64,000 nucleotides of DNA from Macrocystis pyrifera (Eukaryota > Sar > Phaeophyceae > Laminariales > Laminariaceae): NCBI GenBank assembly GCA_031763025.1, contig JASSKH010000001.1:13543659-13607658 (forward strand). Direction: 5' to 3'. Positions 12,738 to 64,000 of the stretch are shown piece by piece (position 1 is the first letter of the stretch; the number at the start of each line of letters is the position of its first letter). The translations under genes were made by a program, and so were the position numbers. The notes under the pieces are model-generated. The model was given only the letters and a program-made list of their open reading frames with translations, had not been told where the DNA came from and searched no databases.

Positions 12738-12837
12738 NNNNNNNNNNNNNNNNNNNNNNNNNNNNNNNNNNNNNNNNNNNNNNNNNNNNNNNNNNNNNNN
12801 NNNNNNNNNNNNNNNNNNNNNNNNNNNNNNNNNNNNN
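12738..12837. other. Assembly gap of 100 N
   Basis: Exactly 100 N, the usual placeholder for a gap of unknown length. The left flank is a TA microsatellite in a GT48 intron; the right flank is the open poly-Ala frame of the YLPM1-like gene. Confidence 0.95.
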
Positions 12838-36506: not shown

Positions 36507-36606
36507 NNNNNNNNNNNNNNNNNNNNNNNNNNNNNNNNNNNNNNNNNNNNNNNNNNNNNNNNNNNNNNNNNNNNNNNNNNNNNNNNNNNNNNNNNNNNNN
36601 NNNNNN
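36507..36606. other. Assembly gap of 100 N
   Basis: Exactly 100 N. The left flank is an imperfect repeat with CTATCGAT units; the right flank is a TA microsatellite that runs into the acceptor of a GT48 exon. Confidence 0.95.
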
Positions 36607-49053: not shown

Positions 49054-49354
49054 TCACCCTCCAGTGGCGCCGTCTTCAGCGGCATCCGCTTCAACCTCTT
49101 CCCTAGTTTTACGTCTGGGTGTCTCTTTCCCCCCCTCCTTCTCGTGCCCCTCGTCCTTCTTCTCTTTATCTTGTACTGCCGCTGTCCTCTTCGGCGATTC
49201 CCGCCGCTCCCTCTCTGGGGAGTCGACCACGTCACTCCGAGCGCCTATTCTCTCACCCGATTCTACCGGCGGCCCAACGCCGCGTTCACCCCCTGCGGAG
49301 TCCGCAAACGGTGCTACAGTCGTAGAAGGAGCACCAACAGCAGCAGCAGCAGCA

Positions 49355-49389
<35 letters not shown>

Positions 49390-50121
49390 AGCGGCGGCAG
49401 CGGCGGCAGCAGCAGCAGGAGCAGCGGCGGCAGCGGCGGCGGAGGCGGCGGCCGAAGCGGCGGTGGCGGCGGCTGCGGCGGCGGCGGCGGCGGCTGCGGC
49501 AGCGGCGGCGACAGTACCAGTACCAGCAGAAGCAGCAGCAGGAGGAGCAGCAGGAGGAGCAACAAAGGAAGCAGCAGAAGTAGAAGCAGCAGCAGCAGCA
49601 GCAGGAGAAGAAGGCGTCTCGGAAAGCGTTGTCAGAGGGGCGAAAACCGGGGCCGCGGGAGCCGAGGAAGCGGAGTAGGGCATAGAAGAGGCGCGGGCAT
49701 GCTCCAGGGTGTCTGTCAGTAAGCGAGGCACGTCCACGTTAGTCGAGAACGCTTCAATCAAGGCTTCCGCCCCGTCAAGCGCACGGCTACTATCGCCGCC
49801 GCCTCCACCGTCGCCACTACCACCGCCACCACCACTACCGCCACCCTCGCCGCCACCCCCACTGGGACCGCTGCTGCTGCTGGCTACCCCGCCCACTGAG
49901 GCGGACGCAGCAGCTCCAGCGCCCGTAGAGACAACCTCTACTGCTGCTGCTGCTGCTGCTGCTGCCGTTGCTGCTGATGATGATGGTGTCATTGCTGTTG
50001 CCGTCGCCCCGGCGTCGGAAGGCGAGGCTTCCGAAGACCCGATGGGCGGCTGTGTGTCGACGAGATGCTTCCCGATTTTGTCCAGGAGGTTCGCTTCTAC
50101 ACTGCCGGTATAGCTGTCGAC
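49054..50121 (-). CDS. Terminal exon of the fusion gene: thioredoxin C-terminus and Ala-rich tail
   Basis: The acceptor TGTAG|GTCGAC continues the thioredoxin with VDSYTGSVEANLLDKIGKHL, its last strand and helix. The rest is low-complexity Ala, Gly and Ser with one more complex segment (ALDGAEALIEAFSTNVDVPR, LLTDTLEHA), a long poly-Ala run from GCC/GCT codons, and a charged end (DKEKKDEGHEKEGGKETPRR) before the stop at 49054. Plus-strand open frames here are the GGC/GCA complement. The poly-Ala length is probably variable. Confidence 0.65.
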
Positions 50122-51345
50122 CTACATTTATCCGATCCAGCAAAAAAGCGGCGGGGGGGGGGGGGCGAAAAAAGATGTTGCGGTTTGTCAGGGAGGGGGG
50201 GGGGGGGGGGGGTTAGCGAAAAGAAACACAAAAAAGGATGAGGGCAAACAAACAAGTGACCCTAGGCCTCTCGGGTTTTGCGGCAGGGGAGGGGAGTAGG
50301 ACAAAAGAAAACTCATGAAGCAGGCTATAAAACAAGGAACAACCACAGGCGTGAGCAGAGAGAGGCCTCTCGGGCTTTTGAGCGGGTGGGGTACACGTAA
50401 GGGGAACTCACGAAGCTGGCCATATATACATAAAACAATATAAAAAAAAAAGCAGGATTAGCCCCAAGGCATACCGCATGGTCGACAGGAAGGCAACCAA
50501 CGCTCACTTCCTGCTTGCAGTCGCGCGGCCATAGCGGTGCAAGAGCGGTCAAGCAGAGCCTAGGTTAGACCGACTAATTCTGTTGCTGCTACTGCCGCAA
50601 CTGCTACGTATCACACGTATACTGAAGTTAATACTGTTGCTACTACCGCTATTACTACTATTACGGAGGACCATAGTAAATAGCACCTGCGGTACACACA
50701 AAAACCTATATATTTCCCTATTTTTACTGACAGAATTTGGTCCCATTTACTGTGGTCCACCGCAATGATACTACTATTACGGGGGGTCCATAGTTAACAG
50801 GACCTATGGTATACATAAAAACCTACATATTTACCTATTTTTACTAACAAAATTTGGTCCTGTTAACTATGGACCCCCGTAATAGCACGAATACTACAAG
50901 TAGTTCCGAGGTAGTATGACTACTACAGCTGCTACTGCTGCAACCGCTACTGTTTTTGTTGCTGCTGCTGTCGCTGCTACCATTACGGGGGTCCATAGTT
51001 AATAGGACGTATGGCACACATAATAACCTACCAGGGTATATATTTACCTATTTTTACTAACAATATTTGGTCCTATTTACTATGGTCCCCCGTAATACGT
51101 ACAACTGCCAATGATGTTCCCGATACTACTGCTGCTGCTGCTGCTGTTGCCGCCGCTGCTGCTGCGGCCGCCGCGGCTCACCTCAACACCATCCCTGAGT
51201 AGTGAGAAGTGTGGGATGCCTGTAACGCTGTCCATGACGAGAAGGTCAGCCACGTCCACGTCGATCGTGGCGACAGCAACGCCTCCTCCAAATTCAACCG
51301 GAAGTTCGTGTATAAACGGCTTGCAAAACGTGAATGGAGGGGAGG

Positions 51346-51420
<75 letters not shown>

Positions 51421-53667
51421 CGTACCCATTTCTTCTTTGCCTCAGTAATTTGACCATTGACCACGCATCCCTTTCGAGACGGAGCAGGAGGGGAGGGGGC
51501 TAGACAGGGGAGGAGGGGGGGGTGTACTCGATAGGAGAGATGTACTCGATCTCATGCATGGCCGTAGTCGTATGACCGTAGACCCTCGCATCCCTACAAT
51601 GCCGGGACGGAGCATGTCGGGTTTTCACCGACCAGGCAGGCATTGCTTGCACCAAGCGCGAAGCGCCGTGAGGGGTCCGGCGAGTCGCATGAAGGGTGAG
51701 CTGCATCCTACTAAGAACCGCTTGTGAGGCGGACTTGCATATGGATGACAGCTTCAATGAGGGGGGGGGGGGGGAAAGGGGGTATGAGCAGCGAGCGGGG
51801 TGGGAGGGGTGGGGGGAAGCAAGAAGAGGGGGGAAAGGGAAGGGAAAAAGAGAGGGGGGGGGCAGGAAAGAGGGAGAGAGGAAGAGAGGAGGCGAAGGGC
51901 AGATGGGGGAGGGGGGGGAATAGGGGGGGCGTACTCATTTGTTCCTTGCCTTAGTCATTTGACCCTTGACCACGCATCTCTTTCGAGATGGAGCACCGTC
52001 CCTACTCCTAATAGATACACCTCCAACAATTGGGCGCTCATTGCGTTGTTTCCATATATTACACAGATTTATTTTGCCGATCTTATCCCCTCCCTGTTTC
52101 GCCGCCTGTGGCCACCATCTATCTCCTAGGAAAGCGGGGGGGGGGGGGGGGGATGGAAGAGGGCATGGAGCGGGGGGCGGGTATGAAGTAGGCGCCCATG
52201 GCAGCTTCCAAGCTGTCAACGATATGAATCGTGTGCGTATTCCACTGCTCGCCGGAATGAAAACCGAGTCTGACGCTTTTAAAAAAAGTCGATGGCGCCT
52301 TCGCTTGTCGCTTGTCGGTCGGTCCCGCAACGACCGCTATCGCGAAGGGATGAGAAAAGAAGGCGAAGCCAGGACACGCACGGCTGCAATAACAGTTTAT
52401 CGCAACCGAAAATACAGAGCAAAATCGTGGTATGGCGAAGAGGAAGGGGGGGGGGGGGGGAGGACGGGGGGGGGGGAGGTCACACGCATAACCGGCACGG
52501 ACATCTGAACCACTGCCGTCGCCGCCGCCGTCGCCGAGTTATAGGAAAGCGCCAAAAGCACCACATAAGGTGCGCATGACAGGAGACACTCCCCCCCCGC
52601 ACTCACCCACTCACTCGCTTGCTTCCGCGATCGTCGAATGCGCAAAAACGAGCGGAACGTGCGCAAACACACGCGAGAGAAAAATGAAAAGTAACACGTA
52701 TATCGTCGTCCTCATCGGCGAGTCCCAGTCCTCACCCCCATCGAAGAACAACGACGTACATCTGACCATCCTGGCATTGTCAGGACAACGTGTGATCGCC
52801 CGATATCACATTCGACGACTGCCCTTCCCCCCGCCCAGCTCCACTCCACCCCCCCCCCCCCCCCCCCCCCCCCCCGGTCCTCCTTCCTCACCAGCATCGT
52901 CTGGCAGTTATGGCACCATTCCGCCCCGAAGTCTAGCACGACCAGCCGCCCACTCCCCGCCGCCGCCATAAACGCCTCCAGCTCCTGCTCGCTCGTCACA
53001 GCCGTCACTGGCAAGGGAGCCAGTACGACCGCCGCCGTCCCCGCCCCTGCTAATCCTACCGCCCCTCCGGCTGTAACGGCTCCCGACGGCGCAGAGGATG
53101 CCGTGGTCGCTGCAGACGCGGCGGTTTCTAGTGTCCCCTCGGCGAGGGCGTTAGTGGTAGTGGGGGTGGGGGTGGGGGGGTGGCGGTGGTAGTGGTGGCG
53201 GCGGTGGCGGTGGCGGGTTTCAAAGAGGCGATTTCGGGAACGAAACCGTAGGGCATGGCGTTCGGATTTTCCTGAGAGAAGTAGGATGTGACAGCCTGCG
53301 GAGAAAGAAAGAAAGGAGGGGGGGAAGGAGGGGGGGGAAGGGAGTGAAGTAGCTGTTGAGGGGAAGCGAACCGACCGCCTTTGGAGGAGCGCGGGAGAGG
53401 GGATAGGGGATAGTGGGTAGGGGGGGGGGGATACACATGTCATGCATGGCCGTAGTCGAACGACCATAGACCCTTGCATATCTAAGTACGATACCGGGGG
53501 ACGGAGCGCCCAACGGGTTTTCACTGATATACAGAAATTGCTTGCACCAAGCTCGAAGCGCCGTGAGGTTCTCGGCGAGTCGCATGAAGGGTGAGACGCA
53601 TCCTACTAAGAACCGCTTGAGTGGCGGACTTGCATATGGATGACAGCGTCGAAATAATTGATTCGGA

Positions 53668-53744
<77 letters not shown>

Positions 53745-56700
53745 ACTCGATAGGAGAGACGAACTCGTTCTCTTGCATGGCCGTAGTCGTATGACCATAG
53801 ACCCTCGCATCCCTACAATGCCGAGACGAAGGATGTCGGGTTTTCCCCGATCAAGCAGACATTGCTTGCACATGAGGGGGGGGGGGGGTGTACTCGATAG
53901 GAGAGATGGGGAAGGAAATGTCGGGGGCAGGGCGGGGCGAGGGAGGGCACCAAGAGGAGCGCAACTATCGAAAGCGAGTGCTGCAAGAAGAACAAAAGCG
54001 GGAGTGGAAGGTTGGGCATCGCAGGCGGCGGATACATGACATCGGCAGATTTTGCGCGCCCTCAACCACAGGCTCTTGGCTACACACAAACGCCGGAACC
54101 CAACCAGAGTTGAACCTGACCAAACCAAACCAACCTCAAACCGCACAGCACCGCACCGCACCAAACATGGCGAAACCAAACCGAACCAAGCCAAGCCAAA
54201 CCAAACCAAGCCAAACCAAGCCAAGCCAAGCCTAACCATACCAAACCAAACAGATTCCAAAAACAAGACCAAAGCCGAAAACACAAAAAACACGCCCAAA
54301 GCTCACACCCGAAAACCCACCTCGCGGCACCTCTGCAGCGAGTAGTACCCGTTCGTGGAGATGCGGTTAAACACGCCTCCCAGAACCCGAACGCCCCGCG
54401 CCTGGAAGAAGGAGGCGTTGAGGTTGTAACTGTCGACCGCGTCCCCCACCCCGGACTTCCCCACCAGCAGAACCGGAGCACCCAGAGCATGCGCAACATC
54501 GGCATTGGAAACCCCGCAGATAGAACCCACCGCCGGGTAACCAACGCCGTCGACAACAACAACCTAAAGAAGGGGGTGCGAGGGGGGGGGGGGGGGGGAG
54601 GGAGGTGGGGAAGGGAGGGTGGGGGAGGGAGAAGGAGGGGGGGGGGGGGGTAAATGGTCCGTACATATCCGAACAATTACCTAGTGGTAGCACATACTGT
54701 AGTATACGGAGGCTTTCACATTTTGAAAAAACGACACCTATAACCTCTTCCCCCCCCCCTCCCCGCCTACCGGTTCCTGCCCAATAAGACAAAAGACACA
54801 CAAACAAGCCCCCCCCCCTTTCCCCTCCTACCCCCGTCCCCCCACTTAGTCAACGCCGTTTCCGACGACCCACTACAATGAGGCAAGCAGTAGGGTACCT
54901 TCTTTCCTTGGGAGAGTTCTTCGACGGCATCTCGTATCTCCTGAAGCAGGTCCTCCGACGTCCCCGCACCACCTTTTAGGAACTCCCTCGTAAAGCCCTA
55001 AACTTATTGGTATGGAGGTGGGGCGCAGGTGGGTAGGTGGGTGGGACGGATGCAGGACAGTTTTGGGAACATCAGCCATGCTTTCCGTCAAGTATGCTAT
55101 ACGTAGGAGACCGCGGTTTGACGGCATTGACTTACCGAAGAACATTTTTGCTCCCCATCAACTTCATTCGGTGGTCGCTTCTGCCGTGCATGGCACACGA
55201 TGCGAGTCGCCGCGTGCTTTTGGCCTACAGGGGTAGCGCCTAACTTTTCTGCGCCTCTTACTCCTCCTCCTCCTCCTCCTCCTCTTCCTCCTCCTCCTCT
55301 TCCTGACTTGAGAGCTCCATATAGTTAATAAAGTAAGTCACCCAAAACTCAACTTTTGTTTTCTAAATAGGTTGGCTTAAGCCGATACTACGAACTCTAG
55401 CATGGCCTACAGGTGTAAGCGATTTGATTTTGTGCAACACAAGTGGGATATCACACCCGGGTAGTTCATCTATCACACCGGGTAGTTGCTTCACCACACC
55501 GGGTAGTCCCTTTATCACACCGGGTAGTTCCTTTATCGCACCGGGTAGTTCCTTCATCGCACCGGGTAGTCCCTTTGTCACACGGGGTAGACCTTTTATC
55601 ACACCGGGTGATAGCTCCTCATAAGGCAAAAAAGGTGATAAGCACCCCTATCGCATAGTACAGCATATTTAGATTGGATAAGCCAAACTCACGCGCATCG
55701 AAGTCAGGGTACGAACACGAATAGGTCTCTGGGCGGAAATAGGCCTTCGGAGCAATTTCCGCAACAATAATGAAACAGGCGGTACAATACTGCCTCTCGT
55801 CGGGAACTTAATCCCCCCTTCGATGTTTCACATCAGAGTGCTAGCGTACACAATATTTCTCGGCCAGAGTGCTGCAACGCTGCTCTAGGTATGTGTGGAT
55901 ACGCAGACCAGCTGCTTTCAGGAAGCAGGAGAAACAAAAACACGGCTCTCTCTGCGGGGCAAAATCTCCTTCAGAGAAAAAGAAAGCCCGACAACATTGC
56001 TCGATGAGATCTGCCTACGTACGTGTATATTCTCCATGAAGTCGTTGTTTTGTCTGTGTGTTCCTATTTCCATTCTTACTGCCCCCTCTATCCATTGATG
56101 CTGTCATCCATATGCAACAAAATCCGCCTCTAAAGCGGTTCTCAGTAGGATGCAGCTCTCCCTTCATGCGACTCGCCCAACACCTCACGGCGCTTCGCGC
56201 TTGGTGCAAGCAATGTCTGCCTGGCTGGCGAAAACCCGACGAGCTCCGTCCCGGCACTGTAGGGATGCGAGGGCCTACGGTCATACGGCTACGGCCATGA
56301 TATCGAGTACACCCCCCCCCCCCCCCCCTTTCATTCCGCACACGCGAGGCCTTCCGCACCTTGTAGAAAACCACCGGGCCTATCCCGCGACAAGCCACTC
56401 CTTTGGTCTCGCACCACTCGGTGACCAGCTGGGGCTTCTCGCACTGCGTGGCTGGTTTGATGTAGGCGATGTCGCTCGCTGACAAGCCCTGTCTCAGCAG
56501 GGAGCCCAGAAGCCCGAGGCACGTGCTGCTTTTGCCGACCTGCGACGCACGCGAAAAATATTTTTTGAACAAAAACAAAAAAAACACATAAAATACGAGC
56601 TGAAAAAAAAAAAACAAGTAGAAAAATGAACAAAAGCAAGAATCGAATAAAAAATATCGAGTACGTATCGAATATCAAAATCTCAAATATCGAAATCAAA

Positions 56701-59700
56701 AACAAGACCAAAACATAAAATGTTGAACAGCAATCATCAATATGAAAAATGAAAAAATAGATAAATTCGAAACAATAGACAAAAACCGACAAAAAATATT
56801 TCTCATAAAAAAAAACACATCAACCAAGAAAAATTTGTACATACGATCGTAGACCCAATGAGCGGGGGGCGGGGGATGCAAAAAGCAAGATGGAGTGTCG
56901 TGCTGCATGGCGGCATTGCGGTCAGAAGTGGCTGTTTAGACTCTCGCACAAAGACGAAACGAAGCAGGAAACAAACAAATAGAAGAAACAAGTGGCGGGA
57001 GGCTTCTTTCTTCCCTCGATTGCTTCGCTTGCGCATACACCAGTATATGGAGGACACACGTACATACTGCATGAACGAAAACGGCGCGAACCGTTGCTTT
57101 CACAAATCCACCGCTGCGCGCCCCTCAAATAAAGCAGACTACACCCACTGTCTCACGGCCTGTGACCACATACTCAGCGTGTATCTCTCTAGGACGAAGA
57201 ATCAGGACGGACACTGGGTGTACTACCGCAATGTAGCTGGGTAGAAAGAACTGTTCAATGTTCAAACAACACACACGAACAGAAAAAATTACAGCTTCCG
57301 CCAACAACACAAGAGTGCAGCATCAGCAGCAGCAGCAGTAGTAGTATAAACTACGTTTTTGCATTGCAGTCAAGTCATTCGTGACCAGCCACCGCTAGGT
57401 GTGCAGCTCGTCGGGACCCCCCCCCCCCCCCCCCCACCCCCCCTCCCGCCCTCCCGCCCCCCGAACCCCCAACTCCACCCCTAACAAACCCACCTGGGAA
57501 CGGTCCCCGGCCACGAAGACCAACGCCGCAGGCGGCTTAAGAAACGCCTCCCCTGCCGCGCCTGTCCCCGCCCCCGCCCCTGCTCCCGGCATCGTATTTG
57601 CTCCAATCTGCTGTTCTTGCTGCTGCTGCTGCTGTTGTTGCGGGAAAGCGTCGCGCTTGTTCTGCTCTTCGGCCATCACCTGTTTCTGTCTGTGCCTTTG
57701 CCGGCGCGAAACGTCTTCTTGCCGTCCGAGCTGGGCGAGGGTGTCCGGGCTATTCTCCAGGAGGTGGACCAGGCGGGAGACCTTGGCCCACGGGGTGGAG
57801 CCCGGCGCCGCGTACACCTGCCAACCCGTTCGGCCCGGTGGTCGGTATTTTGTAGGGAATAGAAAAAAGCGCGCAGCGGTTATGTACCGAACCGGAAGCG
57901 CTTGGTGATACACAGGGCTGTCAGTTCAGGCATGCCTTGGATGTGAGCCGAACGGACATATACCGAACCAAAACCGCTTCGTATATTAGGGCTGTTATTA
58001 CGGGGGACCATCGTAAAAAATAACCAAATTTTGTCAGTAAAAATAGGTGAACATATAGTTTTTTTTGTGTATACCATAGGTCCTATTTACTATGGCCCCC
58101 CGTAATAGTTGACCCTTTTAGGACCACAGTTCCGTCATGAGGAAAAATTGCTTGGAATTAGAGTGGTTTGTCCCCAAAAACCGGACTGCAGTACTAAAAG
58201 CCTTGGGTGTAAAACTTAACAGCTAAGACGGAACCGAAAAATCGCAATATGGGGCCGTGAGTTAAGGTACGCCTTAAATGTGAACAGAACGGTCAAAATA
58301 CGGAACTCGAACATCGCAATATGGGCATGTCTTGGATGGACGTTAGCGCATGCCTTGGAGTTATTATATAGATGGGAGGCGATGTAACCCAACTCTTTTT
58401 GGGGGGAGGGGGGATATAAATCAGAACGCATGATGGCCCCAAATATATATATATTCCACGAATTTTACTATTACGGGGGTCCATAGTCAATAGGACCAAA
58501 TATTGATAGTAAAAATAGGAAAATATGTAGGTTTTGTGTCTACCGCAGGTCCTATTTACTATGGTCCCCCGTGATAACAAAATAGTGGTTCTGGTTACTA
58601 CAGTATGTTCCCCGGCAATAGCTGACCAACTTACGGTAGCTTTTGTCGGTAAACAAATACACGTCGACCCACAAACGCGCCAAAGAGAAAAGTACAAAAC
58701 CGCCAATTACCCCGCGCAAACACCTGACCAGCAAATCTAGCTACAGGCAGTGGTGTAGCGGGCAGCATATACCGAAAAGAGCGTTATGTTCAAGCGGTGC
58801 AGTTTGAGCGAACCATACCGCGCCGAATACTATTAATAGGATTTTGTCTTGAACAAAACCGCATCGCGCCGCACCGTAGGACTCTCAAAAAATAAAAGGC
58901 CGCACCTCATCTCACCGTACGATTCTAAAAAGCAAATCCCCATCGCACCGCACCGCTCGGCTCTCACAAAAAAAAAACGCACGCACAGACGCACACGAAA
59001 AGGTCTTCGAGTCTTTTAATTAAAGTCGAAAGGCTTACTACGTTGCGGGAACTTAAAACCGTCCCGCCTGAAAAATCAAAAACCAAAACCCGCACCGTGG
59101 TAAACGCACCGTACGATTCTCAAGTACCAAAATCCTTACCGTACCGCACAGCACAGCACCTTTTACCATTCTGCAAAAAGAAAAAAAATCACGGCGGTTC
59201 GACTCTATGATGAAGGGTGACAAGCCTTGCCCTGAAAAAACAAAATGGGTCTCGCTCCCCAGAATGAAATACTGTACGAGTGCTGTGCCGGTATATTGTC
59301 CCCATATCCCCACACCAAAATCTCCAAGGTTTTGATAGGTGGGGCATACCCATCCCATACCCGGGTATAATTTCGAGGTCGTACCTAAGGCACCCAAGAC
59401 TTAGGTGAGTATCGGAGGTCGTACCCACCGTTAGGCACGACTAGCTAATTACTGAAGGTCGTACCTAGAGTGAGGTAAAAATTGGGTACGTTAAGTATCG
59501 GAGGTCGTGCCGGTTGAGTTAGGTGAAAAATTGGGGTCAAGTATCGGAGGTCTTACCTAAAGTTAGATGAAGCTCAGGTCAGTATCGAAGGTGTTCGGCA
59601 ACGCTTACGTAAGCATCGTAGGTCATAACTAGAGTTAGGCACTGCGTAGGTGAGTACCGGGAGTCGCATCTAGAGTCAGGTAGATATCGCCGGTGAAACC

Positions 59701-61591
59701 TAAAGTTAGGTAAAAAAAGTCCTGCGAGGTACTTGTACGTACTGAGTTCCAATTTGAGTGCGCGCGGTATGTAACCGCTGGGCATTTTGTAGACGGGAAT
59801 ACCCGACAACCGGGTAAGATTAAGGTTTGGTCGGCGTACCTAACGAACCGAAAACTTAAATAGGTTAACGATATTACGGGGGACCATAGAAAATAGGACC
59901 AAATACTGTAGCTAAAAATAGGGAAATATATAGGTTTTTGTGGGGGGGTTAGGTCCTATTTACTATGCCCCCCCGTAATATTAATAGTACGCTGTTTTCT
60001 TGCGCAGGGGGCCATAGTATTTCCAGAGCGGCACTCGCTGTTGACCAGGCCGCGGCACGCCGCGTTGAGGTCGTTTTCTGGTCAGCCGGGGCGTAACGGC
60101 CTCCTAGAGAGTACACGAACGACGCCTCAGGAGTTCCTTCTGTCCGACAACCACGCAGTACGACGAATTCATCGACGAACTTTGTGGCCTCGCTCGGCAC
60201 GTCGTACACCTCATGTGCCCCCGCCCTTGCCGGGTGCGGCCTCGATCATCTCTACGTACCCCGGACGTGTTCTGCGCGCTGCGCCCCTCGCTCGGTACAC
60301 TTGGTGGGTCCTCATTATCTCCACCAACGCTTTCGCTCTTCGTCCATGACCTTACTTTCTATCCGTGGCTTAAGAACGCCTGCGTGTGGCAGGTATCTCA
60401 TAGCATAGGGAGGGCGAGGTGTCTCGTGGCAGAGGGAGGATGCTACTGAAACCACTGCCGTAATGCGTGCCTGCACCTATCGGCTGACCAAATCCAAATA
60501 ATTTGCTTCACGAGATGGGGTGGTCAACAAGCAGTTTAGTACAAGCGGGACTTGGGGAAAACGCGGCTGACCAAACATCCGGGTCGTCAGTTCAGAAAAT
60601 CGTAAAACTATCCCTTTTGAATTTCGCGGGCCACTTCAGGCTGGACCAGCCTACGAGCATAGTTACACAGCAGTACGTACAGCAGCAGTTGTGCGAGCAA
60701 TCGCCAATCGCGCGCTCTGGCCAACAATTTACGGGGGACCATAGTAAATAGGACCTACGGTATATACAAAAACCCATGTATTCCCCTAATTTCACTATAA
60801 TAATAATAATATTCGGTCCTATTTACTACGGTCCCAGTAATACCACGGCTCGTACTTGTATGGGTACAGCAGAACATGGTATATACACCAGCACAGGCAG
60901 GTATCAACCAAAAAGCAAAGCGAGAAAAGCAAACAGCAGCAGTGTGAACTACTGCTGCGTTCGTGTGTGCTGCGTGTTGTCACGAAACTACACCGACGTT
61001 ACGTGATACCGCTGCGCCAGGCACGATGGTACGAGGTACCAGGTGTGTGAGTAATACAGCCGCATACAGCAGCACAGCAGGTACTTCACAGCAGCCTCAA
61101 CTTGATACCTTGCACGTACCTGGTACCTACCTGGTTCAACGAGTGCCAAACAAGAAGCAATTGCTGCTACTCGTAGGTACGTACATACAAGCCCTCACCA
61201 TCTTTCCGCCGGTGAAGAACAGCCAGCGTGCCGCAGAGACGCCATCACCTGCTTCCCCTCCCTCCGCGCCCGGCAGGCTAGCGGCGACATCCGGTCTGCT
61301 GGCTACATCAACGCGGTACGACTTCACGCCAGAGGAAGAAGCATCGAGAGTACTTGAAAGCTCGTCGAACGCTTGAGCCACCCGCGCGAAGTCACCGCCG
61401 CCGCCGTTGTCGCTGCCGCTGCCGCTGTGGTCGTCCTTTCCAGTTGTGAAGCAGTGGATTACTAGCTTAGCACTGTCCTTCACAAGGCGATCGAGGTGCT
61501 TTGTGCTCACTATGCTGACGGGTGGACCCATGCCTACTTGGCACTTGGCATGAGCTAGGTAAAGAGCACAGCAGAGCAGAACAAAGAGCAT
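49054..61591 (-). CDS. Signal-peptide / thioredoxin-like / BioD-like NTPase / thioredoxin fusion protein
   Basis: Eight exons join in phase 0 to about 949 codons: 61199-61591, 57494-57817, 56360-56539, 54899-54997, 54321-54563, 52892-53295, 51182-51319, 49054-50121. Order of parts: N-terminal signal peptide; thioredoxin-like domain without CxxC; Q-rich linker; P-loop NTPase of the dethiobiotin synthetase / phosphotransacetylase-N type; Pro/Thr/Ala-rich linker; thioredoxin domain with CHNC; Ala-rich tail. Each acceptor gives a protein join that makes structural sense, for example FFTGGKM+VYAAPGS, GDRSQ+VGKSST, CHNCQTML+PFIHEL and RDGVE+VDSYTGS. The sixth exon needs one extra base in the G7 run at 53174-53180; with it the exon is exactly 135 codons. 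I do not know a named protein with this layout. A redox-linked nucleotide-dependent role in the secretory pathway is a guess. The alternative is that two or more genes are being joined, but the splice phases argue against that. Confidence 0.72.
50659..50766. mobile_element. M1 inverted-repeat element
   Basis: TATTACGGAGGACCATAG to GGTCCACCGCAATG; first of a cluster of three. Confidence 0.6.
50776..50883. mobile_element. M1 inverted-repeat element
   Basis: TATTACGGGGGGTCCATAG to GGACCCCCGTAATA; both arms near perfect. Confidence 0.65.
50982..51097. mobile_element. M1 inverted-repeat element
   Basis: ATTACGGGGGTCCATAG to GGTCCCCCGTAATA, with a small CCAGGG insertion in the centre. Confidence 0.65.
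51182..53295 (-). CDS. Exons 6-7 of the fusion gene: end of NTPase, linker, thioredoxin active site
   Basis: Exon 52892-53295 opens AVTSYFSQENPNAMPYGFVP, the usual C-terminal strand of the BioD-like domain, then runs through a Thr/Pro/Ala linker into TSEQELEAFM and LVVLDFGAEWCHNCQTML. The thioredoxin active site is WCHNC. Exon 51182-51319 (46 codons) gives PFIHELPVEFGGGVAVATID, VDVADLL and GIPHFSLLRDGVE, including the cis-proline (IP) needed in thioredoxins. The intron between them holds unrelated repeat DNA and two poly(C)-tailed elements. Frame continuity in the first exon depends on one missing base in the G7 run at 53174-53180. Confidence 0.75.
51349..51490 (-). mobile_element. pC-B terminal fragment with a tail of about 70 nt
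   Basis: Poly(G) at about 51349-51420 is followed by CGTACCCATTTCTTC and ends at GAGACGGAGCA. It sits in an intron of the thioredoxin/NTPase gene, directly beside a pC-A copy. Confidence 0.55.
51513..51762 (-). mobile_element. pC-A copy, 5' truncated
   Basis: Starts GTGTACTCGATAGGAGAG and ends GATGACAGCTTCAATGAG at another G run. Nearly identical over its length to the copy at the right window edge, which suggests recent activity. Confidence 0.7.
51911..52131 (-). mobile_element. pC-B: best-preserved coding end
   Basis: On the minus strand one open frame reads LGDRWWPQAAKQGGDKIGK, LCNIWKQ, RNERPIVGGVSIRSRD and ends GQMTKARNK followed by TGA at 51937-51935. The stop overlaps the TGAGTACG terminal motif and the C tail begins six bases later, so the element has essentially no 3' UTR. 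The 5' truncation point (52131) abuts another G tract at 52137-52152. Confidence 0.65.
53417..53657 (-). mobile_element. pC-A copy, 5' truncated
   Basis: Starts GATACACATGTCATGC and ends GATGACAGCGTCGAAA. It has an AAGTACGATA variation in the CATCCCTACAATG segment. Confidence 0.65.
53671..53875 (-). mobile_element. pC-A copy with a 73-nt tail
   Basis: Uninterrupted G run at 53671-53743, then GTACTCGATAGGAGAGACG to CATTGCTTGCACATGAG. A further 30-bp piece of the same terminus follows at 53878-53908. Confidence 0.65.
54321..57817 (-). CDS. Exons 2-5 of the fusion gene: BioD-like P-loop NTPase
   Basis: Exon 57494-57817 finishes the first thioredoxin-like domain, passes through a charged, Q-rich linker and ends ALVFVAGDRSQ. 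Exon 56360-56539 starts VGKSSTCLGLLGSLLRQG, so a Walker A motif (GDRSQVGKSS) is split by an intron of nearly 1 kb. DIAYIKPATQ matches the strand after the P-loop in BioD-like enzymes (KVGYIKPVGQ). Exon 54899-54997 is helical (GFTREFLKGGAGTSEDLLQE). Exon 54321-54563 begins VVVVDGVGYPAVGSICGVSN, the Walker-B-like strand, and continues ADVAHALGAPVLLVGKSG and VLGGVFNRIS. These are typical of the dethiobiotin synthetase / CobB-like fold and the BioD-like N-domain of phosphotransacetylases. The substrate is unknown. Confidence 0.75.
55435..55622 (+). repeat. 21-bp minisatellite
   Basis: Nine units of CACACCGGGTAGTCCCTTTAT type. Because 21 is a multiple of three, all six frames stay open and give heptapeptide repeats (LPGVIKG on the minus strand). 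It lies in an intron of the fusion gene, so I do not call a protein. Confidence 0.75.
56085..56332 (+). mobile_element. pC-A copy, 5' truncated
   Basis: Starts CTATCCATTGATGCTGTC and ends ATATCGAGTACACCCCCC (tail about 17 nt). The exon ending at 56360 begins 28 bp later, so this insertion is very close to a coding exon of the fusion gene. Confidence 0.7.
57996..58108. mobile_element. M1 inverted-repeat element
   Basis: TATTACGGGGGACCATCG to GGCCCCCCGTAATA; an M2 copy follows immediately. Confidence 0.65.
58113..58200. mobile_element. M2 inverted-repeat element
   Basis: TTTTAGGACCACAGTTCCG to CGGACTGCAGTACTAAAAG, four bases after an M1 copy. Confidence 0.6.
58469..58575. mobile_element. M1 inverted-repeat element
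   Basis: TATTACGGGGGTCCATAG to GGTCCCCCGTGATA. Confidence 0.65.
59385..59710 (+). repeat. Degenerate repeat with AGTATCGGAGGTCGTACC units
   Basis: About eight units of 35-50 bp, each with (G)AGTATCG(G/A)AGGTC and AGTTAGGT. Confidence 0.55.
59872..59980. mobile_element. M1 inverted-repeat element
   Basis: TATTACGGGGGACCATAG to GCCCCCCCGTAATA; the centre has an extra G run. Confidence 0.65.
60728..60842. mobile_element. M1 inverted-repeat element
   Basis: TTTACGGGGGACCATAG to ACGGTCCCAGTAATA; the centre has a TAA-repeat expansion. Confidence 0.6.
61199..61591 (-). CDS. Exon 1 of the fusion gene: signal peptide and first thioredoxin-like domain
   Basis: The ATG at 61591 is the first in frame and starts MLFVLLCCALYLAHAKC, a good secretory signal with likely cleavage after AHA. 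No Phe follows the site, so the plastid-type signal of secondary algae is not evident. The mature part has thioredoxin-fold order: KHLDRLVKDSAKLVIHCFTT (helix then strand), FARVAQAFDELSSTL (helix), VKSYRVDVASRPDVAASL (strand/helix) and ARWLFFTGGKM (strand). The usual WCGPC site is replaced by CFTTGKDD, so this copy is probably not a classical oxidoreductase. It ends at ATG|GTGAGG; the next exon completes the fold with VYAAPGSTPWAKVSRLVHLL. Confidence 0.7.
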
Positions 61592-61771
61592 GGATTGCAC
61601 CGCACATGGTTCTCCCCTGCCTACATTAATACCAGTATATTTACACTTCAGCCCTATCAAAACACGCTTCTCAGATTACTATAAAACCTACAAGATCTCA
61701 TACGTACTCGCTCAGCTCAGGGCTGGGTGCCAAATTCCTGCGGTGCACAGGGGAGCTAGGCAGACCCTAGC
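61592..61771. promoter_or_regulatory. Divergent promoter region between the fusion gene and the GH81-like gene
   Basis: Only 180 bp separate the two start codons, so both 5' leaders and core promoters must share it. TATAAAA at 61680-61686 lies about 86 bp upstream of the GH81-like ATG and is a plausible TATA box for the plus strand. On the minus strand an AAATATA sequence at about 61636-61642 lies roughly 45-50 bp before the fusion gene's ATG. No repeat or mobile element is inserted here, unlike almost every other intergenic or intronic stretch. Confidence 0.5.
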
Positions 61772-62257
61772 ATGAGCACTCCTCACCCCAATGAGCGCAC
61801 GTCTTTAAGCGTCGGTGAGGGTGGGTATCGAGCCACGGAGCCAACCCCACCCGCCGCCGACAGGTCCGCAGGAATATGCGGCGCCCTGCATCTGCCTCGC
61901 CTGGGCATCGCATGCGGTGCAATCTTCTCGCTGGTGATCCTGGTATCTATGCTGTTGTCCGAGCCCGGGGGTGCTCCGAACGCTCAGCAAGGCGGGACTC
62001 CGGGTGGATCCCCCGACAATGAAAATCTTCAGGACACCTCAGCTGGTGTCCCTGTGGTCGAGGACCGCGTCGTTCCGAGCATGCAGCCGTTTTCGACGAT
62101 GGATCCTGCGGACGTCCACTGCCCTCATATGGACAGGCCCAGAGACACCTGGCCCTCGGGTGCCTGGGGCACGTTGGCCAATGCCTCGGTAGATCTGCAC
62201 ACCAGCCTGCCGACCAACGCGTGGTGGGAGAACATCGCGCTGGGTTCTCCGACGCAG
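61772..62257 (+). CDS. Membrane-anchored endo-1,3-beta-glucanase-like protein (GH81-like), first exon
   Basis: GH81 enzymes hydrolyse internal 1,3-beta-glucan bonds. The 162 codons from ATG comprise a cytosolic tail rich in Pro/Glu (residues 1-44), one membrane helix (about 45-62, IACGAIFSLVILVSMLL) and a Gly/Pro linker. Then come DPADVHCPHMDRPRDTWPSG and SLPTNAWWENIALGSP, which matches the start of GH81 domains (PLPTN followed by an aromatic and LGS). No signal peptide; the helix suggests a type II anchor with the enzyme outside. The exon ends at ACGCAG|GTGCAT in phase 0. No later GH81 exon is recognised before 64000, so only the N-terminus is in the window. It is in the same locus as the glucan synthase, and its 5' end faces that of the thioredoxin/NTPase fusion gene. 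Confidence 0.68.
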
Positions 62258-63625
62258 GTGCATCGTCGTCGTTTTCGTCACTATGGCTGGGCGTATGATA
62301 TATACGTTGCTAGATTTTCGGCTAGTCAAAACGGCCGGTTGTTGATGTTGGGCACTGGGCACTGCGCACCCATGGTTGACTTGATATCTGCACACCTGGG
62401 TGTGCAGGCTGAGAGCCGAGAGGACTCTCTACCTTTCGGGATTCTGGTTGTACCTGGTATCATGCCACCTGTATACCTGCTACTCGTACAGTCGTGCCGC
62501 TTCACTGCTGCTGTTGCAGGGTACTGATACCGGACTGGTATACCAGGTATCATGTAGCTACTGCTGTAGTTCCTGGCCTATACAAAAAACGACGAAACTC
62601 GATGTACGAACCTGGGCCTATTACTATTAATAGACGAAAAGCAGAAGTGCATGCCAGTTCTGTCTTCCGGTTTCGGCTCCCATAAGATTCAGCCAGCCTA
62701 GCACGCAAAAAAGATGACACACACCCCCACCCCCGACCCCCCAGGCGACTTTCCAAGCCGAAATTCTCGAAATCCAAGGGGCGGCACCCACAACGAGAAT
62801 GGCGGCTGTGGGGGAAGCTCTCCATGAGATACCCTCCTCACAGACGCATCGCTCGGCGCTTGCACCTTCTTCCTCATTGTCGAGAGAAAACTGCCTTCCA
62901 ATTTCGTCCGAGGGGATGAGTTCTACCGTGGTACCTAAATTTAGGGACAGTTTTAATTTTATTTTATTATACGAAATGTTCTTATATTCAGGGACAAAGT
63001 GATATACAGCAGCAGTAGTAGTATTACGGGGGACCATAGTAAATAGGACCAAATATTGTTAATAAAAATAGGGAAATATATAGGTTTTTTGCTTGTACCG
63101 TAGGTCCTGTTTACTATGGTCCCCCGTAAATAGTAGTAGTAGTAGTCGTAGCCTCGCACCTGCTTTGCAAGCACAGCGACAGCACAAACAACAAGTCGCA
63201 AGTCATCGTGGTACATTGTCGGTGCAGAGCTATCACACCACGGCCGTAATACGAGTAGCTTCTATCCCACGATTGGGACGCCGAGTGAAAAAAGCGGTGG
63301 TGGCGCTCCTGGTGCGCCGGGGACGACGACAGCTGGTTCGAAAAATGAATCGAGCCTGCTTGCTTGCGAAAGAAGCTCTTGTCCCGCGGGGAAGTACGAG
63401 CAGGAGGCCGGTCGTTTCGGGGGGTGTTGAGTGTCAAGGCCTCCCTTGGTGTTACTTTACCGGTTTTAAATGGTCTTGGGGGGCGGACAGTCAAGGGGTC
63501 AAACCGCGTTCTCCTTGTATTGTGAAGTATCTTTACGTATGTTTGCTTATTGTATGAACACACATACGTAGTGATTATTTTCTCCTTTCCCATCTCTTCG
63601 GACCCCGTCGGTTAATGATTGGATG
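62258..63625. other. Intron of the GH81-like gene
   Basis: No further GH81 exon is recognised. Holds CAGGTATC/ATACCTGGT palindromes (62450-62560), one M1 copy and, at the end, the start of a pC-A copy. Confidence 0.45.
63021..63130. mobile_element. M1 inverted-repeat element
   Basis: TATTACGGGGGACCATAG to GGTCCCCCGTAAATA, flanked on both sides by TAG repeats. Confidence 0.65.
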
Positions 63626-64000
63626 GAGGGGGGGGATGTACTCGATAGGAGAGATGTACTCCATCTCATGCATGGCCGTAGTCGTATGACCATAGACCCT
63701 CGCATCCCTACAATGCCGGGACGGAGCATGTCGGGTTTTCACCGACCAGGCAGGCATTGCTTGCACCAAGCGCGAAGCGCCGTGAGGTGTCCGGCGAGTC
63801 GCATGAAGGGTGAGCTGCATCCTACTAAGAACCGCTTGTGAGGCGGACTTGCATATGGATGACAGCTTCAATGAGCTAGTTTATTTTCCGGTGTGGCCAC
63901 TTCTAGAGACAGCAATGGGAGTACTATGTAACTGCCTTTTGGGTGTCGTACCTTGAACACTACGTGATACGATCAATTCCCTTGTGCAGAGTAAAGGTTC
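63626..64000 (-). mobile_element. pC-A copy, runs off the window
   Basis: Short G tail (GGGGGG) then GATGTACTCGATAGGAGAG, continuing past GGAGTACTATGTAACTGCC to the end of the window. The visible 375 bp is intact. Confidence 0.7.

Follow-up and report, generated by a model that had tools for sequence, protein, structure and literature searches.

A minus-strand kelp gene in which a BioD-class NTPase and a CHNC thioredoxin are very probably fused, preceded by a signal-peptide-like start

Can a single gene of the kelp Macrocystis pyrifera place a nucleotide-binding domain next to an active thioredoxin site in one secretory protein? The question is raised by a split gene on the minus strand of a 64,000-nucleotide (nt) stretch of genomic DNA (assembly GCA_031763025.1, contig JASSKH010000001.1, positions 13,543,659 to 13,607,658), here called the window, to whose own numbering all positions below refer. 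The gene has its start codon at 61591 and its stop codon at 49054 and can be read as eight exons (E1 to E8), separated by seven introns of 335-3381 nt, each of which begins with GT, ends with AG and lies between codons (phase 0). In outline the gene is real: eight minus-strand exons and seven GT-AG introns. The domains very probably belong to a single fused gene, in an order that is unusual. The coordinates, strand and motifs quoted in an initial annotation are all present in the sequence, and its statement that the eight exons join in phase is correct for all seven junctions but not for the interior of exon 6, which is 404 nt long and contains a change of frame. The product has 948 or 949 residues, according to how this break is bridged.

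Exon 1 (61199..61591) contains the start codon, a signal-peptide-like stretch and the first part of an N-terminal thioredoxin-like domain without CxxC, as judged from its boundaries, hydropathy and borderline thioredoxin similarity. Its in-frame open reading frame (ORF) opens at 61675 and has its first Met at 61591, and an out-of-frame ATG lies 16 nt upstream of this start codon. After intron 1 (57818..61198, 3381 nt, phase 0), exon 2 (57494..57817) stays open in a single frame over the first domain border, from what are presumably the final strand and helix of the thioredoxin-like domain through a Q-rich linker to the first strand and the first P-loop half (AGDRSQ) of a P-loop nucleoside triphosphatase (NTPase). 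Alignment and the Pfam match of the joined product place the second P-loop half (VGKSS) and the KP motif (YIKPATQ) in exon 3 (56360..56539); the stretch preceding Walker B aligns to exon 4 (54899..54997), and exon 5 (54321..54563), which matches the family profile by itself, holds the Walker B-like VVVVDGVG and FNRI. Exon 6 (52892..53295), assigned from its sequence and by profile search, contains the end of the NTPase (YGFVPE), a Pro/Thr linker with the frame break, and the start of a thioredoxin domain with WCHNC (52904-52918). The middle of that domain, with the cis-proline of GIP (51212-51214), is encoded by exon 7 (51182..51319), and after intron 7 (50122..51181, 1060 nt, phase 0) its last strand and helix are encoded by exon 8 (49054..50121), followed by a long Ala/Gly-rich tail and a TGA stop codon. 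Both domain borders are found within single exons: E2 joins the presumed last part of the first domain to the first P-loop half, and E6 runs from the close of the NTPase into the active site of the thioredoxin. This weakens the objection that separate genes are involved; the second of these borders depends on the unexplained frame break.

What kind of NTPase does the gene encode? Residues 231-417 of the joined product match the Pfam family AAA_26 over nearly its full length (68.8 bits against a cut-off of 27, E 7e-19), and E5 alone matches AAA_26 positions 102-168 above the cut-off (44.8 bits, E 1.7e-11). When the exons were searched one by one, with only the last 279 nt of exon 6 used, E1, E4 and E8 gave no profile match, and E2 and E3 gave none to AAA_26, matching only other families under their cut-offs. 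The exon joins thus raise the score and keep the profile order. The domain has a P-loop with Gly-Lys-Ser/Thr (GDRSQVGKSS). In an alignment with three BioDs, those of E. coli and of two gammaproteobacterial loci (L004 and L005), it displays 23-27% identity, with three features unchanged throughout: the P-loop Gly-Lys, the Lys-Pro pair K40-P41 (whose lysine is Lys37 of solved BioDs) and the G-x-G that follows the Walker B acid. The positions on the substrate side of BioD have diverged: VDGVGY replaces VEGxGG, and VDSYNLN, with one extra residue, replaces the INHALLT-type loop, both motifs being as found in the three aligned BioDs.

We rejected identity with dethiobiotin synthetase, as these substrate-side residues differ and the domain scores 26.3 bits with the NCBIfam bioD equivalog model, whose cut-off of 83.3 is passed by the control BioDs with 175.8 (L004) and 182.3 (L005) bits; the thioredoxin fusion and the signal-peptide-like start are further differences from BioD. 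The best NCBIfam profile for the NTPase is PRK05632 (phosphate acetyltransferase, Pta; E 1.7e-10), which likens it to the BioD-like N-terminal domain of Pta. True BioDs score 52 bits with it too, so the match is no sign of a Pta-type domain. BLASTP against the N-terminal part of E. coli Pta gave 20% over 172 columns, and the P-loop of that protein reads SVGLTS, without the lysine that is kept here. Pta identity was likewise rejected, as the product contains no acetyltransferase domain and reaches 40.1 bits where the PRK05632 cut-off is 418. As judged from its sequence, the NTPase is a BioD-class P-loop domain and not BioD, with no known reaction assignable to it.

The C-terminal domain, residues 515-609, matches Thioredoxin (PF00085) with 52.2 bits against a cut-off of 23.5 (E 7e-14), and no Pfam domain other than this one and AAA_26 is above its cut-off in the joined product. 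The E6 part covers profile positions 5-36 (18.1 bits) and E7 positions 38-82 (14.9 bits), each below 23.5 and consecutive in the profile. Four features of E. coli TrxA line up with the domain: an aspartate buried in the fold (LDF), the WCxxC motif, the helix proline that follows it (TMLPF) and the cis-Pro of GIP. The thioredoxin with CHNC and cis-Pro described in the initial annotation is thus confirmed, its score lying above the Pfam cut-off with WCHNC and GIP both in place, and the profile matches and border-spanning exons E2 and E6 also support the claim that a BioD-like NTPase is fused to it behind a signal-peptide-like start. CGPC is the motif of thioredoxin and CGHC that of protein disulfide isomerase (PDI); CHNC is neither, and unlike thioredoxin the domain lies within a larger protein. 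It reaches 47.6 bits with TIGR01068 (cut-off 96.8) and 26.7 bits with the PDI domain model TIGR01126 (cut-off 107.2). A PDB sequence search with the thioredoxin domain matched 207 distinct sequences, with TXNDC5 in the top row by a three-domain match; among the matches listed, the best 60 of 207, single-domain thioredoxins match better per domain than TXNDC5.

The N-terminal domain has neither CxxC nor a Pro at the cis-Pro site. We compared it with a thioredoxin profile made from five sequences, of which four are E. coli proteins and the fifth is the C-terminal domain of the present product. The hhalign comparison extends over 99 columns with P 0.034 (3 of 150 shuffles were as good), at a probability of only 1.5%, and hmmsearch with the same profile gave E 0.0022 and 4.3 bits, computed for the N-terminal sequence alone. 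Intron 1 (between GGKM and VYAAPG) and intron 7 (between DGVE and VDSYTG) occupy the same fold position, two residues beyond the turn Gly, and both are in phase 0. By a hand estimate that allows for a single intron in the N-terminal domain and two in the C-terminal one, such a coincidence would arise by chance in about 2% of cases; the shared position and phase favour a thioredoxin fold for the first domain.

Translation from 61591 begins with the 15-residue stretch MLFVLLCCALYLAHA (61547..61591, minus strand), recognised as signal-peptide-like from its sequence and hydropathy (highest 11-residue Kyte-Doolittle mean 2.86); it is strongly hydrophobic, ends A-H-A and is followed by Lys-Cys. We take the protein to be probably secretory, with a putative signal peptide and without an ending for retention in the endoplasmic reticulum (ER).

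What might such a protein do? We put forward, tentatively and as a possible assignment, a PDI-like thiol-disulfide oxidoreductase of the secretory pathway, in which a nucleotide-binding NTPase would couple an inactive thioredoxin domain to an active one. The single gene would encode a secretory-pathway protein of about 950 residues made up, in order, of a thioredoxin-fold domain without redox activity, a P-loop NTPase of the BioD (SIMIBI) class, the CHNC thioredoxin and a low-complexity tail. The inactive thioredoxin-fold domain would help to hold a client and the CHNC domain would exchange disulfides, and nucleotide binding to the NTPase, through the face-to-face dimerisation typical of its class, may set how far apart the redox sites lie or how readily the client gains access. 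In the available text of PMC9599734, SIMIBI NTPases form face-to-face dimers, many of them with a Gly at D+3, the position at which the present domain reads D-G-V-G, and the available part of PMC8659263 describes BioD as a homodimer with a substrate cavity between the subunits. The more specific idea of a nucleotide-gated disulfide isomerase, whose disulfide exchange would be switched according to the nucleotide state of a SIMIBI-class NTPase built in between two thioredoxin-fold domains, seems unlikely. The initial annotation had proposed a nucleotide-driven NTPase beside an active redox site in the secretory pathway; the residues that would contact the nucleotide are indeed kept, and the rest of that proposal stays conditional. 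With the PDI family the protein shares a signal-peptide-like start and the presence of a presumed inactive and an active thioredoxin domain in one chain, whereas it has CHNC in place of CGHC, no KDEL, an NTPase between the domains, and a score below the cut-off of the PDI model.

Several observations weigh against a PDI-like role. SIMIBI-class switches are normally cytosolic or organellar. The C-terminus reads EDGATGG, with no KDEL-type ER-retention ending. For the N-terminal domain there was no Pfam, NCBIfam or credible PDB sequence match (one weak designed chain was returned from the PDB), and an AlphaFold model of exon 1 minus the signal stretch has a mean predicted local distance difference test score (pLDDT) of 46.8, a low confidence that makes it uninformative. 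Direct similarity between the N-terminal and C-terminal thioredoxin-type domains was looked for with hhalign, not found (E 0.48) and accordingly rejected. With its borderline similarity to thioredoxin, the N-terminal domain has a thioredoxin fold that is at most plausible, and of the thioredoxin-like domain lacking CxxC that had been annotated, the lack of CxxC stands and the shared intron position speaks for the rest, against which are set the borderline hhalign result and the missing Pfam match. A moderately hydrophobic 19-mer, AVGLAGAGTAAVVLAPLPV (mean 1.78), is found in exon 6 (52892-53295, minus strand) between NTPase and thioredoxin and is a candidate membrane segment; if it were to span a membrane, the two domains would be on opposite sides of it and the PDI-like reading could not stand as it is. 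The frame break in exon 6 could mean that this copy of the gene gives only the first two domains, or decays. No ortholog of the fusion was found in the collections searched, which are prokaryotic or viral, so that the result says little about algae. Finally, the NTPase domain contains six cysteines, which could equally indicate that the NTPase itself is under redox control.

This last point leads to a different division of labour, which we consider rather doubtful: the BioD-like domain would be an enzyme, a ligase or NTPase acting on a substrate other than diaminopelargonate, and the thioredoxin would keep its cysteines reduced or sense the redox state. Besides the six cysteines, the retention of the P-loop Lys and the KP Lys and the intact thioredoxin are consistent with it; the substrate-site residues differ from those of BioD, however, and no known reaction can be assigned.

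Does the frame break mean instead that the fusion is not made at all? The first part of exon 6 (AVTSYFSQENPNAMPYGFVPE...) ends the NTPase and its last part (...TAVTSEQELEAFM...WCHNCQTML) begins the thioredoxin, in different frames. The frame changes at or near a run of seven C (53174..53180, minus strand) in a C-rich tract that has two further runs, each of 5 C. The C7 run starts in E6 codon 39, and the NTPase frame hits a stop at E6 codon 56, 17 codons past the run start. A scan for introns of at least 20 nt that leave at least 30 nt of exon 6 on each side and keep the frame gave 15 GT-AG choices within these limits and, as a bare count, 41 GC-AG ones. All 15 GT-AG choices trim the end of the NTPase after YGF or earlier, removing GFVPE or all but GF. 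We think a small intron less likely than a sequence error or a difference in length within the C-rich tract. If the break is genuine, this allele would make a secreted thioredoxin-like/NTPase protein that ends just past the linker, and the thioredoxin exons would be untranslated, decaying or served by a start of their own. The E6 length of 404 nt and the stop in the NTPase frame speak for this, as does the thioredoxin frame, which is open back to 53602 in intron 5 with Met codons there, making a separate start conceivable. Within E6, though, that frame has no Met ahead of the domain, the parts downstream of the break have been kept (WCHNC, the cis-Pro, the splice sites of introns 6 and 7, and 355 open codons in E8), and the site lies in a C-rich repetitive tract that is presumably prone to sequence errors and length variation. 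We regard a genuine break as improbable.

A plastid or periplastid thioredoxin with a fusion-acquired domain, whose N-terminus would be a bipartite targeting sequence, is very unlikely. The signal-peptide-like start and the alga-like look of the sequence would suit such a protein, but the presumed cleavage site is followed by Lys; in the available text of PMC2567999 the heterokont plastid motif has Phe, rarely Trp, Tyr or Leu, at this position, and the statement there on periplastid bipartite peptides without Phe covers cryptophytes. About nine residues separate the presumed cleavage site from the first presumed strand, probably too few for a transit peptide. That two or three adjacent genes have been wrongly joined is highly improbable too, for although the introns are long (335-3381 nt) and rich in repeats, E2 and E6 bridge the domain borders, every junction is in phase 0 and the joined profile matches are continuous, the E1-E2 join being the weakest.

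Searches for relatives covered several collections. In viral contigs, short exact-peptide seeds, which detect close relatives only, returned no relatives of the NTPase, the N-terminal or the thioredoxin domain. Prokaryotic genome contigs contained no relatives when the NTPase alone was the query, and a query with a three-sequence alignment returned two loci, both of them BioDs adjoining BioC genes. Plasmids, searched with the NTPase only, gave no match at E 1e-5, and at E up to 10 two weak places annotated as bioD and cobyrinate a,c-diamide synthase. In phages there was no match for the N-terminal domain or the NTPase at E up to 1 and none for the thioredoxin at E 1e-5. The NTPase returned two weak chains of other families from the PDB by sequence and no match in PADLOC. 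A literature search with loose terms, in which AAA_26 was matched as 'aaa26', gave no title naming such a fusion among the matches listed. The nucleoside diphosphate kinase of NME8/TXNDC3 has another fold, and the domain order of that protein is different. Shared with it is the joining of a thioredoxin to a nucleotide enzyme, NME8/TXNDC3 being described in the available part of PMC11457495 as a thioredoxin with nucleoside diphosphate kinase domains.

The window contains no Rfam match at the gathering cut-off and no tRNA. Its G+C content is 0.49-0.63 per 4 kb, and together with the long GT-AG introns and stretches rich in Ala, Gly and Gln this gives it an alga-like look. Ten other ORFs of the window gave no Pfam match at E 0.1. 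An element of about 110 bp with inverted ends (TATTACGGGGGACCATAGTAAA ... TTTACTATGGTCCCCCGTAATA) is present at 50659-51097, 57996-58107, 58469-58576, 59872-59980, 63022-63131 and elsewhere; 21 copies of the ends occur in the window at up to 3 mismatches, against a mean of 0.00 in 100 shuffles, and it looks like a miniature inverted-repeat transposable element. Several of these copies lie within introns 1 and 7 of the fusion gene, and intron 3 contains a 21-bp tandem repeat of 7.6 copies (55449-55609). A dispersed repeat of about 180-250 bp, 62-98% alike between copies, is found at 51515-51761, 53532-53980, 56120-56299 (minus strand) and 63629-63875, two of the copies adjoining poly-G tracts of 73-82 nt. 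A divergent ORF on the plus strand (61772-62527), whose ATG is 180 bp from the start codon of the fusion gene, has a membrane-like stretch and the sequence SLPTNAWWENIALG, which we take to recall GH81 beta-glucanases; its first 193 residues gave no Pfam match. Two runs of exactly 100 N with TATA-type repeats at their flanks, at 12738-12837 and 36507-36606, indicate a gapped scaffold.

The formation of disulfides in secretory proteins' pathway is usually attributed to redox couples and not to nucleotides. A BioD-class nucleotide switch and an active thioredoxin in one chain would allow a direct test of nucleotide-controlled disulfide exchange, and would also give the BioD fold a new use beyond biotin, cobalamin and acetate metabolism.

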